Below are positions 23,984 to 29,380 of a DNA stretch of 37,853 nucleotides, piece after piece; the first letter of the stretch is position 1, and each line of letters opens with the position of its first letter. Source of the DNA: a virus. The notes beneath the pieces were generated by a model, which worked only from the letters and a program-made list of their open reading frames with translations, did no database searches and had not been told where the DNA came from. A program made the position numbers and the translations under genes. The stretch lies in the IMG/VR virus record IMGVR_UViG_3300035016_000032, positions 1 to 37,853 of that record, one strand, 5' to 3'.

Positions 23984-23997
23984 TTGCCATGTGGCAA
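23984..23997. promoter_or_regulatory. Operator O1, perfect site next to cro
   Basis: TTGCCATGTGGCAA is two perfect 6-base half-sites with a 2-base spacer. It lies ten bases upstream of the Cro start, where it would block the leftward early promoter. Centre-to-centre distance to O2 is 19 bases. Confidence 0.8.
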
Positions 23998-24002
23998 ACG
24001 AT

Positions 24003-24016
24003 TTGACAAGTGGCAA
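24003..24016. promoter_or_regulatory. Operator O2, with a -35-like element
   Basis: TTGACAAGTGGCAA matches the operator with one changed base. Read leftward it contains TTGTCA, a plausible -35 for the Cro transcript, with O1 lying in the space between it and the expected -10. No clear -10 hexamer is seen. Confidence 0.75.
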
Positions 24017-24017
24017 T

Positions 24018-24031
24018 TTGCCAGTTGGCGG
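24018..24031. promoter_or_regulatory. Operator O3
   Basis: TTGCCAGTTGGCGG has one perfect half-site and one with two mismatches. It is centred 15 bases from O2, so proteins bound at O2 and O3 could contact each other. Confidence 0.65.
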
Positions 24032-24059
24032 TGGCGGGTAGCTCTGCGGTGCAGAATAT

Positions 24060-24073
24060 TCGCCAGATGGCAA
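24060..24073. promoter_or_regulatory. Operator O4 over the CI start codon
   Basis: TCGCCAGATGGCAA has one mismatch to the operator and includes the CI ATG (24067-24069). Binding there would repress CI itself, a negative autoregulation site like lambda OR3 but placed within the coding start. The transcript probably has little or no leader, since no Shine-Dalgarno is present. Confidence 0.65.
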
Positions 24074-24774
24074 ATTGGATCCGTGACGTCCGCAAGGAGC
24101 GAACAATCACGCTCGAGAAGCTCGCCGAGCTGACCGGGCTGTCACCCTCGTTCATCTCCCGTATGGAGGCCGGAAAGCGGGGCGTCAGCCTAGAGCACGC
24201 GGTGACGATCGCGCGGGCATTGTCGGTCGACGTAGGCCGGATAACCGACGAGTACGGGAAGGAGCAGGTTGAAGCCGCTGAGCGGGCGCTTCCCGAGCCA
24301 GTAGAGCGAGACGCCGCGCCCCCATCCGATGCCGTTTTCATCTCCGGCGCCCTGCCGCGCCCCACCGGCCCTCGCGACGTGGAGAAGCTCGGCGTAGCAG
24401 CGGCTGGCGAAGATGGCGACTTCCAATTCAACGGCGAGGTGATCGACTACGTCACCCGGCCGCGGGGCCTGGCAGGGCGGCCCGGCGTGTTCGCTCTCGA
24501 GGTCATCAGCGACAGCATGTATCCCGCCTATCGCAAGGGGGACGTGATCTTCTGCGACCGCCTGGACCCGAAGATCGATGACGACGTGGTGATCGAGACC
24601 TTTCCCGAGAACGGGGAGACGGCCGGCAAAGCCTACGTCAAGCGGCTCAAACGCCGGACCAAATCAGCCCTCGTGGTCGAGCAGTTCAATCCGCCCGGCG
24701 ACCTGACCTTCGATCCGTACGCGATCAAGCACCTCTGGCGCGTCGTGCCGAACCGCGAGCTTCACGGCTATTGA
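24067..24774 (+). CDS. CI-like repressor with an S24 peptidase domain
   Basis: The 235-residue protein has an XRE HTH (about 12-60, TITLEKLAELTGLSPSFISR) and a LexA/CI-type C-terminal domain with the Ser-Lys pair Ser150 (in ISDSMYPAYRKGD) and Lys192 (in AYVKRL). Ala113-Gly114 (GVAAAGED) is a candidate cleavage site, so RecA-dependent self-cleavage on DNA damage is plausible. It should hold the lysogen by binding the operators at 24.0 and 29.35 kb. The ATG at 24067 is preferred to one at 24010 because it starts just before the conserved domain. Confidence 0.85.
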   Translation: MANWIRDVRKERTITLEKLAELTGLSPSFISRMEAGKRGVSLEHAVTIARALSVDVGRITDEYGKEQVEAAERALPEPVERDAAPPSDAVFISGALPRPTGPRDVEKLGVAAAGEDGDFQFNGEVIDYVTRPRGLAGRPGVFALEVISDSMYPAYRKGDVIFCDRLDPKIDDDVVIETFPENGETAGKAYVKRLKRRTKSALVVEQFNPPGDLTFDPYAIKHLWRVVPNRELHGY

Positions 24775-25033
24775 TGAGGTATGCTTCCGCCCTCAGCCGC
24801 GCCAGGTTCGAAGCGAACGCAGCCTGTATGGTGAAGTTGCGGCCCGGCTCGCCTTCGTCTCGGCATTCCTTACAGACGAGGCGCTTCGCGACTTCCGACA
24901 GCCGGGTCGCACCGGTGACGCCGAACTCGGCGAGCTCGGCACGCTTCATTCTGCAACGGTGGCCGCAGTCGCCGCACTCCATCGTCAGGGAAAGCACCTG
25001 CGAGACGACGGCCTCTTTTCCGGGGTACGACAT
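24725..25033 (-). CDS. Zinc-ribbon protein downstream of and convergent with CI
   Basis: The 102-residue protein has CGDCGHRC (20-27) and CKEC (54-57), a classical four-or-more cysteine zinc ribbon, followed by a helical tail. The ATG at 25033 has GGAG upstream. Its 3' end overlaps the CI gene by 50 bases on the opposite strand, which could produce antisense interference with CI. The function is unknown; zinc ribbons of this size often bind nucleic acid or partner proteins. Confidence 0.6.
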   Translation of the reverse strand: MSYPGKEAVVSQVLSLTMECGDCGHRCRMKRAELAEFGVTGATRLSEVAKRLVCKECRDEGEPGRNFTIQAAFASNLARLRAEAYLINSREARGSARRARGA

Positions 25034-25120
25034 GCTTCCGGGCTCCGTTGTCGCTTCCGCAGAGTCAGTCCTGACTCCGAAAAGCGAACGGATCAAGAAC
25101 AGCGGATCCGGGCGCTGCCC

Positions 25121-25141
25121 TGTGCATAACTCTGTGGATAA
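25121..25141. promoter_or_regulatory. Two DnaA-box-like sites in tandem
   Basis: TGTGCATAA (25121-25129) and TGTGGATAA (25133-25141) are, on the other strand, TTATGCACA and TTATCCACA, the DnaA box pattern TTATNCACA. They are in the same orientation, 12 bases apart. They lie in the intergenic region between the zinc-ribbon gene and the plus-strand cassette. They may load DnaA at a phage origin or be a DnaA-sensitive control point for the cassette. Confidence 0.6.
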
Positions 25142-25174
25142 CGGGGATGGCGCCGAAAGAAGGCTTGGTGTGCT

Positions 25175-25531
25175 GTGAGCGATGATCCCGACCACCGCCC
25201 CGACCTGCCGAGCGTCCTCAACGAGCTCGTGCGCGCCGCGAACCGCGTTCCGCTCCTGGGCGACCCCGAAAAGCAGCGCCTCCTGGATCTTGCCGCCTAC
25301 ACGCTGAAGGAAGGCCGGCGCCGAGTGGCGTTCTCCGAACCCGAGAACGACTGGGACCTAGACGAGCCGACGTTCCGCTGGCGCGTCATGTCCATCGCCG
25401 TCCACGAGCACAGCGATGACGAGGTGCAAGCGGCACTCCTTGAGGCGGCGGAGCTGATCCGGGAGCTCAAGATCATCTTGGATGCCAAGGCCGAGGTGCT
25501 GGGCGAGAACGAGCGCGAGGGGAACGCCTGA
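25175..25531 (+). CDS. Helical protein A1 of a paralogous pair
   Basis: A GTG at 25175 starts a 118-residue helical protein. Its motifs VLNELVRAANRVPLLGDPEK, DEPTFRWRVMSIAV and EAAELIRELKIIL recur in order in the protein at 26520-26843 (FVAELFRAANEIEKLG, DPTFRLRAISL, GAAQEIRTLKIKL), so the two are paralogues. No known family is recognised. It is the first gene of the plus-strand cassette between the two operator clusters and ends in an overlap (TGATG) with the exported protein gene. Confidence 0.6.
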   Translation: MSDDPDHRPDLPSVLNELVRAANRVPLLGDPEKQRLLDLAAYTLKEGRRRVAFSEPENDWDLDEPTFRWRVMSIAVHEHSDDEVQAALLEAAELIRELKIILDAKAEVLGENEREGNA

Positions 25532-26142
25532 TGCGGCTAGCCTCCAGTTTTCCAGCGGTAGCTTTCGCTGCGATCTCGGCGACGTGCATGCTCGCCCTGG
25601 GAGTGCCTGTCCACGCGCAGAGCGGCATTCCAGCTCTTCCCGGCACCAGCACGGCTGAAAGGGCGATCACAGACTGTCAGGAAGTGCAGGCGACCTTCGA
25701 ACGGGAAATGGCCCAGGTCGACCTTTTCCGTCCGTCGATCGCTCCGAACTTCAAGGTCCAATCCTACCCGTTCTGGCGTCTTTCTGGGCTTCTCGACTGC
25801 ATCGAACGAGAGTTCGATGCACTACAGACCTGCATCGAGAGCCATGACTTCAGCGCTGCTGACGCGAGCTACGCCATCCGGGAGACGAAGGCGAAGTTCT
25901 CCGGGGTGCTTACAGCGTACCTCCATGCGACGCGCCCCGGCTCGGAGGAAAGGCTTAAGCCCCTCATCGACGAAGCGCTTGAAGGCGCCGAGGAAATCCT
26001 CGCCACCGGAGAGTTCAGTGAAGAGTACCATGTGAAGACAGCGCAAGCGCCCTTCGGTGTTGGTGAGTGGGTCCACGTGTGGATTTCCATGAGCGCCGCT
26101 GATCTCGCGTTCTGCGTCGGCAACGTGCGCTCGTCGTACTGA
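25531..26142 (+). CDS. Exported protein in the immunity-region cassette
   Basis: The 203-residue product has a signal peptide (MRLASSFPAVAFAAISATCM, likely cleaved after VHA) and a mature helical domain with four cysteines (DCQE, LDCIERE, TCIES and FCVGN) that could form disulphides in the periplasm. Starts with ATG overlapping the upstream stop. No family is recognised. An exported product in the immunity region may act at the cell envelope, like many superinfection-exclusion proteins, but this is inferred from position only. Confidence 0.6.
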   Translation: MRLASSFPAVAFAAISATCMLALGVPVHAQSGIPALPGTSTAERAITDCQEVQATFEREMAQVDLFRPSIAPNFKVQSYPFWRLSGLLDCIEREFDALQTCIESHDFSAADASYAIRETKAKFSGVLTAYLHATRPGSEERLKPLIDEALEGAEEILATGEFSEEYHVKTAQAPFGVGEWVHVWISMSAADLAFCVGNVRSSY

Positions 26143-26158
26143 TCGGGCGAGAGGTTTG

Positions 26159-26341
26159 ATGCGCCTGACCCTCCCCCTGCCCGCGGACGTGGCTGTTGCG
26201 CTCAGGCGCTATGCGGAATTGGAGGGCATTGAGATCGAGCTCGCTGGGGTCATCGCCATGCGAGAGTGGCTGATCCATGTCGGCTACCTCGTAGAAGAGC
26301 CAGAGATGGAAGAAGACGCCCCGACCGAGCGGACCGCCTGA
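26159..26341 (+). CDS. Small RHH-like protein B1 of a tandem pair
   Basis: This 60-residue protein starts MRLTLPLPADVAVALRRYAE, followed by EGIEIELAGVIAMREWLIH and an acidic tail ending DAPTERTA. The strand-helix-helix pattern resembles a ribbon-helix-helix domain. GAGAGG lies before the ATG. The next gene is a close paralogue of the same length. The two may form a heterodimer. Confidence 0.6.
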   Translation: MRLTLPLPADVAVALRRYAELEGIEIELAGVIAMREWLIHVGYLVEEPEMEEDAPTERTA

Positions 26342-26523
26342 TGCGCCTGACCCTCCACATACCCGACGAGGCAGGAGAAGCTCTCCAAAAGGTCGCGGCG
26401 AGCGAAGGCATCGAAATCGAAATCGCAGCGTCTGTTGCCATCGTCATGTGGCTTGTTGGCGAAGGCCTTCTCGAACTGCCCGACGAGCTAGACGAGGACA
26501 CGCCGACGGAGGGAACGGCGTGA
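26341..26523 (+). CDS. Small RHH-like protein B2 of a tandem pair
   Basis: This 60-residue protein (MRLTLHIPDEAGEALQKVAA, then SEGIEIEIAASVAIVMWLVG) shares the MRLTL start, EGIEIE motif, WL/G turn and PTEGTA end with B1, and is translated from an ATG overlapping the B1 stop (TGATG). It is a recent tandem duplication by eye. DNA binding as an RHH dimer is the likeliest role, unproven. Confidence 0.6.
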   Translation: MRLTLHIPDEAGEALQKVAASEGIEIEIAASVAIVMWLVGEGLLELPDELDEDTPTEGTA

Positions 26524-26843
26524 CCGTCGAACCCAACAGCATCCCTGGTTTCGTTGCCGAATTGTTTCGGGCTGCGAACGAGATCGAGAAGCTGGGCACC
26601 GAGGAAAGGCAGAGGCTGCTTGAACGGGCGTCCCATACAATCGGAGACCTGCGCGCCGCGATGATCCGAGCCGGCCGAGTGCTGGAACTTGAGAGGACCG
26701 ATCCAACGTTCAGGCTTCGGGCTATATCGTTGCAGGCCAAGGATATTCCCTCGTCCAGGATCGCCGCCGAGCTTCTCGGTGCAGCCCAGGAGATCAGAAC
26801 CCTGAAGATCAAGCTTGAGCAGCCGACGGAGGGGAGCGCGTGA
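26520..26843 (+). CDS. Helical protein A2, paralogue of A1
   Basis: The GTG at 26520 overlaps the B2 stop (GTGA) and gives 107 residues. The alignment with A1 covers nearly the whole protein: the N-terminal helices, RQRLLERASHTIGDLR, the DPTFRLRAISL segment and the final LKIKLEQ. It is shorter and lacks the acidic loop of A1. An A-B-B-A arrangement thus spans the cassette, with the exported gene following A1. Confidence 0.6.
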   Translation: MTVEPNSIPGFVAELFRAANEIEKLGTEERQRLLERASHTIGDLRAAMIRAGRVLELERTDPTFRLRAISLQAKDIPSSRIAAELLGAAQEIRTLKIKLEQPTEGSA

Positions 26844-27154
26844 GCGACGACGAGGATCAAACCGGAGCGCTGCCCGACGGACGGGTTGTGCCATTCTCAG
26901 CAGAAACAATCAGGAGGTTTGCGCGCTCCAAGGGGCTACTTGACCGGGCCTGCGAACTGTGCGGCGCGCATAGCTGGGACATGGAGAAAACAAACGATGA
27001 TGGTAGCCTCTCCGGCGAGGCCGTGTACGGCACCATCCCCGACAACAGGCTGCGCTCCTACTACGGTGCCTACCTCATGATCTGCGACAACTGTGGAAAC
27101 ATCCGGTTCCTTTACGACGGCGTCGTGATTAACTGGGTACGAGCCAATGACTGA
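26840..27154 (+). CDS. Zinc-ribbon protein in the cassette
   Basis: The 104-residue protein has CELC (38-41) and CDNC (82-85), a split zinc ribbon with about 40 residues between the pairs, inside a small alpha-beta protein ending FLYDGVVINWVRAND. A GTG start overlaps the A2 stop by four bases (GTGA), so the cassette is one transcript. No family is recognised. Confidence 0.6.
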   Translation: MSDDEDQTGALPDGRVVPFSAETIRRFARSKGLLDRACELCGAHSWDMEKTNDDGSLSGEAVYGTIPDNRLRSYYGAYLMICDNCGNIRFLYDGVVINWVRAND

Positions 27155-27491
27155 CCGCCAGCCTCTACAGGTCGTCAGCTCGAATGTGTATCCGGTAGCA
27201 GGAAAGTCTGGTGGGCCGACAGATGGAGGGACTCCATTGGAACCCCGCTTAAGAGCGCTTGAGGATAAGTTCGACAGGATCGAAGCCAAGCTGAACGGTA
27301 TCTCAACCGACCTCGCTGAGATCAAAGGCAAGCTGAGCGGAATGCCGGGAGCTTATGAGTTCGGCCAACTCAAGGGCCGGGTGGACAGCCTGCCTACTAC
27401 GGCGAAAGCCGCAACTCTCCTCGGCATAGCGGGAACCCTGATAACCATCATCCTGAAGTGGCCCGAGCTCAAAGTATGGTTCGCGGGCTAG
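27147..27491 (+). CDS. Coiled-coil protein with a C-terminal membrane segment
   Basis: The 114-residue protein has a coiled coil (about 32-68, RALEDKFDRIEAKLNGISTD) and a C-terminal hydrophobic segment (ATLLGIAGTLITIILKW), an XhlA-like architecture that occurs in phage lysis and membrane proteins. It is the last gene of the cassette; its ATG lies inside the end of the zinc-ribbon gene. Acting as a membrane-anchored component of the cassette is an inference. A holin role is possible but no endolysin is nearby. Confidence 0.6.
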   Translation: MTDRQPLQVVSSNVYPVAGKSGGPTDGGTPLEPRLRALEDKFDRIEAKLNGISTDLAEIKGKLSGMPGAYEFGQLKGRVDSLPTTAKAATLLGIAGTLITIILKWPELKVWFAG

Positions 27492-27517
27492 CCCCTCTCC
27501 TTTTACCTCTCAGCCGG

Positions 27518-28282
27518 CTAAAACAGTTCGGCTTGAGGGGTTTCGTCCAAGCGCAGCACTCCTAGAAGCTGCCAGACTTGAGGTCGCTTCGCTTGGTTGC
27601 CGACGGCGAAGACCATGCCGGCCCTCGGGTATTTCACATTGAACGTGTCGTTCATCCAGTCGAGAACCTCGGCCTCGCTCTTCCCGCTTCGCAGGCCATT
27701 GTAGAACATGGCATGAGCCTCCCAGTCGCCATTCGTGTAGGTGTGATCTGCCTCGGCGTCTCGGAACTTGAATTTGAACTCGTACGGCGTGGGCTCAATA
27801 GCGGCGAGTTCCTTGTCGAAGAGCGAAGTCTGCCGGGCGGCGCGCTGAAAGGCGTCCCGGTCCTCCTGGACTTCCGCCGCGGTCTTGCGACGCCATGAGA
27901 ATCGCGGCTCTCGCGGGCGGACGAGCGCCAATGACTGCTCGCGCCTTACAGCCTCGCCGACGGATGGCAGGACAAGGGGGCCAAGGATCCTCGTCCGATC
28001 CCTCTCAGGCATCCATCCTACGACCTGAATGCTATCCTCATGGACATGGCAGCTTTCTAGCCGGACGTCTCTGAGCGGAAGAGTGTAGCGGAATTGGACG
28101 GCATCCCACCGACCAAAGCTGCTACCGCCAGCCAGGTGCCGGAAGCGAACCGGGTAGAGGCGTTTCCATTGCCGGTCGGCCGTGTCACCAGCGCAGCAGA
28201 CGGTTTCTCCGTACTTCGCGCTAGGCTGCGGCAACGCTTTGACAAGGATGGTGACGCGGCAGTCTTGCGGCGTTCCGCGCAT
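27518..28282 (-). CDS. Partner protein of the DUF488 gene, unknown
   Basis: From the ATG at 28282 the protein is 254 residues. Its N-terminus has a strong conserved-looking pattern (VTILVKALPQPSAKYGETVC, then WKRLYPVRFRHL) that I recall next to DUF488 proteins in other bacteria. The C-terminal part is basic and contains DWEAHAMFYNGLRSGKSEAE. The overlap of 62 bases with the DUF488 gene shows co-translation. Family and function are not established. Confidence 0.6.
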   Translation of the reverse strand: MRGTPQDCRVTILVKALPQPSAKYGETVCCAGDTADRQWKRLYPVRFRHLAGGSSFGRWDAVQFRYTLPLRDVRLESCHVHEDSIQVVGWMPERDRTRILGPLVLPSVGEAVRREQSLALVRPREPRFSWRRKTAAEVQEDRDAFQRAARQTSLFDKELAAIEPTPYEFKFKFRDAEADHTYTNGDWEAHAMFYNGLRSGKSEAEVLDWMNDTFNVKYPRAGMVFAVGNQAKRPQVWQLLGVLRLDETPQAELF

Positions 28283-28733
28283 AGCGTTCGGGCTCGTCCC
28301 CGTAGAGGTCACAAACCTCGAAGCCTCTGCTTCCCAACTCGGCCGCGACAATCGATCGGTGGCATGTTGCCGGATCCCGCTCGAAACAAAGAAGTGCCGT
28401 CGCTCGAGCGCAAGCCAGCGCCACCAGCTGGGTCATCTCGTTCTGGGCAGCTTCAGCCTGGAGGTGCGCCCCGTAGATAGCACGAAACCTGTCGTAGTGT
28501 CCTGCCCGCGCGGCCTCCCTCCCCGGTTTCGGATCGCCCAAGCCAGAGAATGGCAGATAGAGAAGACCTTCTGCTTCAAGACGCGCAGCAAGCGATTTCT
28601 TCGAGAATCCGCGCTTCCTGGATAAGGGGACTGCCCGCACGTCAGCGACTTGTTGCACGCCCGCGGCTCGTAGCGTCGCCATAAACCGATCGATGTCGGT
28701 GCCCTCATAACCGATGGTGAAGACGACGCTCAT
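28221..28733 (-). CDS. DUF488 family protein
   Basis: This 170-residue protein has the DUF488 signature: FTIGYEG near the start, VADVRAVPLSRKRGFSK, then YLPFSGLGDPK and the Cys/His motif LLCFERDPATCHRSIVAAEL. These proteins are thought to act on nucleic acid or its modification, but no activity is established. GGGAG lies six bases before the ATG at 28733. Together with its partner it forms a two-gene minus-strand unit in the immunity region, opposite to the surrounding cassette, typical of an inserted cargo unit. Confidence 0.8.
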   Translation of the reverse strand: MSVVFTIGYEGTDIDRFMATLRAAGVQQVADVRAVPLSRKRGFSKKSLAARLEAEGLLYLPFSGLGDPKPGREAARAGHYDRFRAIYGAHLQAEAAQNEMTQLVALACARATALLCFERDPATCHRSIVAAELGSRGFEVCDLYGDEPERYARNAARLPRHHPCQSVAAA

Positions 28734-29264
28734 GTGTACTCCCTCGAGAGGCCTTACTCGCAAGGCTGGCTTGCGTCACCCGTGCGTCGTGTCGCGCCCT
28801 TCTGGACGCACTACGCCCATTCAAGACGTTCGCCCTGAGACCACCAGGGGTTCCGCCCTTTCGCCCCGCCGTATGCTGGCGGGCCGGGATGCTATGAAGT
28901 CGGGATATCCTGCGCTGCCCGTTTCCCCGGTGGGCCAGTCCGTCTGATCGTCTCAGGGCATGTTGCGCAGTTTACACCTCAGCTCGCATCCAAAGCATTC
29001 GGACGGCGCCTACCCGTCCCGACCGTCGATTGAGCCTGGCAATCGAAACCGCTGAGCACTCATGCACCGGAATGATCGGCGCGACGGGGCAATGCCCGAG
29101 GAAGACCGTCGCCTCTGCGCTTTCCTGATTCCTCACGGCCGGGAGCCTCCGAGCAGACACCGTGGGGTGAGCAGTTCCGCGCCGCGAGGCCGCCTGTAGG
29201 TTGCCGGTGAGCCCGTTCTGGGCTATGTTTCCGGTTGCAAGCACTTCTTTTTGGCTTCCTCGCG
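28734..29264. other. Gene-free stretch of about 530 bases
   Basis: No ORF here has both a ribosome-binding site and a protein-like composition; the longest, 28972-29325 on the minus strand, starts within the terminator and looks like a shadow. An AGCCC-GTTCT-GGGCT hairpin lies near 29213-29227. The stretch ends at an intrinsic plus-strand terminator although no plus-strand gene precedes it, so a small untranslated RNA is possible. No tRNA or other known RNA was recognised. Confidence 0.4.
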
Positions 29265-29300
29265 CCCCGGCCGGATCATCCCCGCCGGGGTTTTTCTTTT
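29265..29300 (+). terminator. Intrinsic terminator before the rightward operators
   Basis: CCCCGGC (29265-29271) pairs with GCCGGGG (29284-29290), followed by TTTTTCTTTT. This seven-pair GC stem with a long T run is a strong rho-independent terminator. It isolates the rightward early promoter region (operators at 29333-29380) from transcription of the immunity region. Confidence 0.75.
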
Positions 29301-29332
29301 GCGCCAGGTCGCGCGAGGGCGTCAAGAATTAT

Positions 29333-29346
29333 TTGCCACTTGGCAT
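29333..29346. promoter_or_regulatory. Operator R1 of the rightward cluster
   Basis: TTGCCACTTGGCAT matches the CI/Cro operator TTGCCA-N2-TGGCAA with one base changed. It is centred 15 bases from R2, the same as O2-O3 in the CI-cro region. Confidence 0.75.
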
Positions 29347-29347
29347 T

Positions 29348-29361
29348 TTGCCACTTGCCAC
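29348..29361. promoter_or_regulatory. Degenerate operator R2 with a -35-like element
   Basis: TTGCCACTTGCCAC keeps one perfect half-site; the other is degenerate and contains TTGCCA (29355-29360), a plausible -35. O2 in the reverse direction reads TTGCCACTTGTCAA, so the two share nearly all their first eleven bases and the same -35 position. Confidence 0.65.
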
Positions 29362-29366
29362 CTGCT

Positions 29367-29380
29367 TTGCCATCTGGCAA
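29367..29380. promoter_or_regulatory. Operator R3, perfect site next to the rightward operon
   Basis: TTGCCATCTGGCAA has two perfect half-sites. It is centred 19 bases from R2, as O1 is from O2. It lies between the presumed -35 and -10 of the rightward early transcript, 48 bases before the first start codon. Confidence 0.8.

Follow-up and report, generated by a model that had tools for sequence, protein, structure and literature searches.

The 37,853-nt virus record IMGVR_UViG_3300035016_000032 (the window; coordinates refer to this full stretch) carries a run of small genes between a cI-type repressor and a second operator cluster, which raises the question of what these genes contribute to a prophage and whether they do so together. 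The first operator cluster (23984-24073) comprises four copies of TTGCCAnnTGGCAA in the cro–cI gap, and the second (29333-29380) has three such copies and lies upstream of the early genes transcribed rightward, preceded by a terminator-like hairpin on the + strand (29278-29291). The window yielded 20 rows for the operator pattern (expected, 8.8); 2 of 100 shuffles reached as high a count, and zero copies were found between the two clusters. The initial annotation had placed ten open reading frames besides cI in this interval, and all ten were found at about the positions assigned to them. The strand layout required correction, as the first zinc ribbon gene is antisense to cI and the genes for a DUF488 protein and its partner are transcribed opposite to cI, convergent on an operon that contains the paralogous A and B genes.

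The cI gene (24067-24774, + strand) encodes a repressor with a LexA-like C-terminal domain, recognized by its similarity to the repressors of two sister phages, L008 (76% identity, C-terminal part) and L009 (57% identity). The C-terminal domain is common to the three repressors, and their N-terminal regions differ, are partly extended and match different operators. The zinc ribbon gene (24725-25033, - strand) covers the final 50 nt of cI in antisense orientation, and its product is 60-67% identical to the counterparts in L008 and L009. Exactly the same 50-nt overlap is present in L008 and L009 and was found at 13 of the 28 viral loci that carry a repressor (L186-L213, in which L186 and L193 are L008 and L009). 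Other loci have a similar zinc ribbon further downstream of cI, and the pairing with cI is also present in rhizobial genomes. Since this association recurs in L008, L009, the other viral loci and rhizobial genomes, sequence comparison assigns the first zinc ribbon to the immunity module as a core partner of cI and not to the cargo. The convergent overlap is strikingly fixed in many rhizobial and related phages. In the Mesorhizobium genomes L146-L149 the cI–zinc ribbon pair adjoins sugar-transport genes, with no phage genes evident within the listed few kb.

When the window is compared with L009, the segments 24336-25101 and 28996-29301 are conserved and the DNA that separates them is unrelated, which delimits a cargo slot at 25102-28995 that has no counterpart in L009. 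In L009 the slot contains a three-Cys-motif partner protein and a DUF5131 protein (PDC-M41A/B), and in L008 it contains an HSDR_N-type protein, an addiction-module pair and PDC-M41A/B. PDC-M41 (three-Cys-motif partner and DUF5131/Gp37-Gp68) shares its slot position with the DUF488 pair of the window, but its proteins are unrelated to that pair. Operator clusters of other sequences (GTCACC...GGTGAC and TTGCGATAATCGCGA, as compared to TTGCCAnnTGGCAA in the window) occupy the two equivalent places in the sister phages. As the repressor N-termini and the operators differ among the three phages, but the terminator just ahead of the right operator cluster is nearly identical, these phages are heteroimmune relatives that retain the architecture of the immunity region and exchange its cargo. 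The two-cluster layout is shown for three phages only, because, when 28 more distant repressor loci were searched for paired clusters of palindromes, it was recovered only in L008 and L009. A search with the shared terminator pattern returned zero further phages of this type, and a DNA search of phages and plasmids with the whole interval returned zero matches. In more distant phages with the cI–ribbon pair, the early genes usually begin about 0.4 kb further on, and cargo is scant or absent. The right flank of the slot (28996-29301 in the window, 12960-13254 in L009) is 67% conserved, contains no convincing gene and has a hairpin at its end. This segment may encode a small RNA or act as a promoter region directed leftward; Rfam gave a sub-threshold match only.

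The interval is best read as an immunity-linked exchangeable slot with two independent loads, its contents being exchanged among phages that differ in immunity. The initial annotation had likened its position to that of rexAB in lambda, and this positional idea is right and indeed stronger than originally put: the genes have the repressor on one side and the second operator cluster on the other, the equivalent interval in the sister phages is a cargo slot, and PADLOC recognizes candidate defence pairs in all three phages. The interval matches rexAB in its location downstream of cI and before the second operator cluster, whereas co-directionality with the repressor applies to the A/B operon only. 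Like the rexAB relatives CarolAnn gp44/43 and Sbash gp30/31, the window genes are repressor-linked cargo, with no sequence relation to those proteins. Among all ten proteins there was no Pfam match to the RexA-like DUF4747 up to an E-value of 1, and a RexB-like protein with several transmembrane helices is absent, inspection of the sequences revealing only the single-helix protein P0008.

The + strand of the slot encodes A1 (25175-25531), a small helical protein; an exported protein (25531-26142), whose signal peptide with a site between VHA and QS is visible in the sequence; B1 (26159-26341), of 60 aa; B2 (26341-26523); A2 (26520-26843), a predicted four-helix bundle; a second zinc ribbon (26840-27154), related to phrog_4293 (E-value 1e-5); and P0008 (27147-27491), in which a coiled coil is followed by a C-terminal transmembrane helix. 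These genes are co-directional with cI, and their stop and start codons mostly overlap (TGATG, GTGA), therefore we treat them as one operon. The proposed paralogy was confirmed for both pairs (A1/A2, 35% identity over 107 aa, E-value 5e-17; B1/B2, 48% over 60 aa, E-value 1e-16). The accompanying claim that these proteins lack a recognizable family no longer applies to A, which has relatives in 130 rhizobial plasmid records and 31 viral contigs (identifiable relatives also exist for DUF488 and its partner), and it stands for B, which gave only three weak matches in 397 related genomes. Searches of plasmids with B and the exported protein, of PHROGs with A, and of viral sequences with A2 and the exported protein individually gave no matches, and the exported protein yielded no relatives overall. 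The predicted A structure has four helices, and a structural search returned only generic helical bundles (Z-scores 6-7). We considered and rejected A as a HEPN RNase, as no histidine is invariant among 28 members and the RX4-6H motif is thus missing. B looks like a ribbon-helix-helix protein from its sequence pattern, a likeness that is unproven (B2 against Pfam RHH_1, E-value 0.27 and 11.7 bits, below the cut-off of 20.5).

Homologues of A often end chains of tiny overlapping genes in rhizobial elements and are not repressor-linked. Co-occurrence at the same place in other prophages, a check suggested in the initial annotation, is accordingly not supported for A, whose homologues are mostly located elsewhere in rhizobial phages and plasmids, and B is too poorly conserved to be placed. 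The operon is a second load of small, probably regulatory proteins derived from rhizobial mobile elements.

Facing the operon on the - strand are the genes for the partner protein (27518-28282) and the DUF488 protein (28221-28733), which overlap by 62 nt. The latter belongs to the rhodanese-phosphatase superfamily and scores 99.8 bits against Pfam PF04343 (cut-off 22.2) and 34.5 bits against PF22751, the N3-type signature (cut-off 27). PADLOC assigns the two proteins to PDC-M19A (E-value 6.1e-27) and PDC-M19B (E-value 2.9e-28), respectively. Both components of PDC-M19 are thus matched and adjacent as in that system, which is listed as a phage defence candidate, the catalogue giving no mechanism. 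Burroughs and Aravind reportedly described DUF488-containing conflict systems within the rhodanese-phosphatase superfamily in 2023, and the window likewise has a DUF488 protein with the N3-type signature.

Scans for loci encoding the partner gave 15 viral and 67 genomic ones, ranging from alphaproteobacteria to actinobacteria. Intact partner and DUF488 reading frames are adjacent in 79 of these 82 loci; the two genes are convergent in 12 loci, mostly from actinobacteria, and otherwise overlap in tandem. In the three exceptions a transposase sits at the DUF488 place (L090), the DUF488 gene accompanies a broken partner (L057), or DUF488 is missing (L120). Residues C116, E118 and C124-H-R126 of DUF488 are invariant across 81 sequences and also present in the window copy. 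In the partner, sixteen positions are invariant across 73 sequences, including K15, P18, G25-E-T-V-C29, R41, P44, D72, R74 and E76.

The structure predicted for the partner (pLDDT 90.9) suggests a dual OB-fold protein resembling single-stranded DNA or telomere-end binders, as its best Foldseek matches are OB-fold proteins of this kind (CST, E-value 1.4e-4; TEBP; Teb1). Matches to single OB domains reach a Z-score of 8.8, which alone reflects a common arrangement, and whole-protein matches are weak (TM-score up to about 0.35), OB folds being common. Sequence searches against solved structures gave no matches. The Pfam family DuOB (PF22557) was matched by 7 of 73 partner homologues at E-values up to 0.1 (best 0.0056), the window protein being unmatched, and the link to this family is suggestive only. 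An invariant cysteine in both led us to consider the partner as an ARPP (PMC9503650); no Pfam match connects the two.

In Gordonia phages the repressor is gp44, the dual OB-fold protein gp43 and the DUF488 protein gp42. In phage Eviarto, gp43 and the end of gp44, annotated as the immunity repressor gene, share one base, and the convergent gp42 is a DUF488 gene (hmmsearch E-value 1e-54); six further Gordonia records carry the dual OB-fold partner. A prophage-like segment of a Pseudochrobactrum plasmid encodes a cro-like protein, a LexA/CI repressor, a small membrane protein, the dual OB-fold protein, a convergent DUF488 protein, a nuclease and RecT. Recurrence at the same place, a check proposed in the initial annotation, was thus found for the DUF488 pair, which in two further, unrelated groups of phages also adjoins the immunity repressor. 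Other viral copies are located elsewhere, after an endolysin gene (L044) or between ParB-methyltransferase and terminase genes (L045, L046). Among 143 neighbours of chromosomal copies, methyltransferases, resolvases and restriction genes were few, with no strong overall defence-island signal. In the viral contig L043, the DUF488 pair stands in one row with GmrSD and type I restriction genes.

The reading that we favour, with a probability of just under one half (approximately 0.48), is that the slot carries a mobile PDC-M19-type pair that most likely acts on nucleic-acid ends to protect the lysogen, together with a second load of small genes. Protection of the lysogen is the likeliest function of the pair given its genomic context, its invariant residues and the predicted fold of the partner. 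The prophage would carry the pair as a shield against other phages: the dual OB-fold protein would bind nucleic acid that infection generates in single-stranded form or as ends, and the DUF488 enzyme would use its cysteine site to process these ends or their sugar-phosphates, with the outcome that replication of the invader is blocked or the cell is stopped. Expression in the lysogen, which this scheme presumes, would need a promoter of the pair's own, since the pair is transcribed opposite to cI; none was recognized in the window. Consistent with defence are the swaps with candidate defence pairs in the sister slots, the recurrence beside repressors, the restriction genes next to the pair in L043, and a precedent in Gordonia phage CarolAnn, in which gp43 and gp44, encoded beside the repressor, are expressed in the lysogen and defend against other phages (PMC6426606). 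The CarolAnn proteins, for which defence has been demonstrated experimentally, are unrelated to the DUF488 pair. Counted against defence are the many chromosomal copies outside defence islands and several phage copies that follow lysis genes or lie near those for ParB-methyltransferase and terminase, positions that a role in processing phage DNA would fit too.

These same locations bear on an alternative that we regard as possible, if unlikely, namely that the pair is a module for nucleic-acid maintenance or modification that aids its carrier element through end repair, replication or anti-restriction, and does not defend the lysogen. Such a role would agree with phage copies that lie between ParB-methyltransferases and terminase or have RuvC-like genes as neighbours, with copies carried by conjugative plasmids of both bacteria and archaea, and with methyltransferases among the chromosomal neighbours. 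Against it count the repressor-adjacent position of the pair in three phage groups unrelated to one another and the swap with other candidate defence pairs in sister phages. We consider it improbable that the A/B operon is instead the functional module, acting in exclusion or as a toxin-antitoxin system with B1/B2 as antitoxin-like regulators, A1/A2 as helical effectors and the exported and membrane proteins alongside, and with the DUF488 pair as a passenger. The operon is co-directional with cI like rexAB, B has a pattern reminiscent of ribbon-helix-helix proteins and A, in rhizobial elements, is the last gene in chains of tiny overlapping genes; however, no toxin is recognizable, the kind of invariant histidine that the HEPN RX4-6H motif requires is missing from A, and no relatives of B pair with A. 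Least of all can we follow the initial annotation in treating all ten genes as a single lysogen-expressed sensor-effector system, a highly improbable arrangement despite the single slot and the tight overlaps within the + strand operon. The first zinc ribbon follows cI and not the cargo, the two modules converge from opposite strands, and their distributions differ, A occurring without the DUF488 pair and the pair without A or B.

Returning to protection of the lysogen by the DUF488 pair, a more specific form of this reading can be advanced only tentatively, well short of even odds: repressor-linked exclusion expressed in the lysogen, with end recognition by the dual OB-fold protein and processing by DUF488, may occupy the same immunity position in unrelated temperate phages of alphaproteobacteria and actinobacteria. 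The predicted dual OB-fold of the partner and the repeated place beside phage repressors would be new relative to the PDC-M19 catalogue entry. A candidate defence pair so far confined to a catalogue is thereby tied to a site at which prophages keep lysogen-expressed protection genes, and it gains a predicted fold for the partner and candidate active residues. The Gordonia phages of the Nymphadora group are laboratory phages in which the role of the pair can be examined directly (host G. terrae 3612).

Two variations of the pair were also observed. The DUF488 protein of several other phyla has a conserved N-terminal domain of approximately 150 aa (L103, L104, L109, L111, L113, L115, L122, L124), for which there was no Pfam match in those loci. 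In the Sulfolobus plasmid pSOG2 (L216, 3992-5352), the dual OB-fold gene adjoins not DUF488 but a reading frame of 168 aa that resembles a PD-(D/E)XK nuclease by eye; if this assignment, made by inspection alone, is correct, the enzyme partner of the dual OB-fold protein would be exchangeable.
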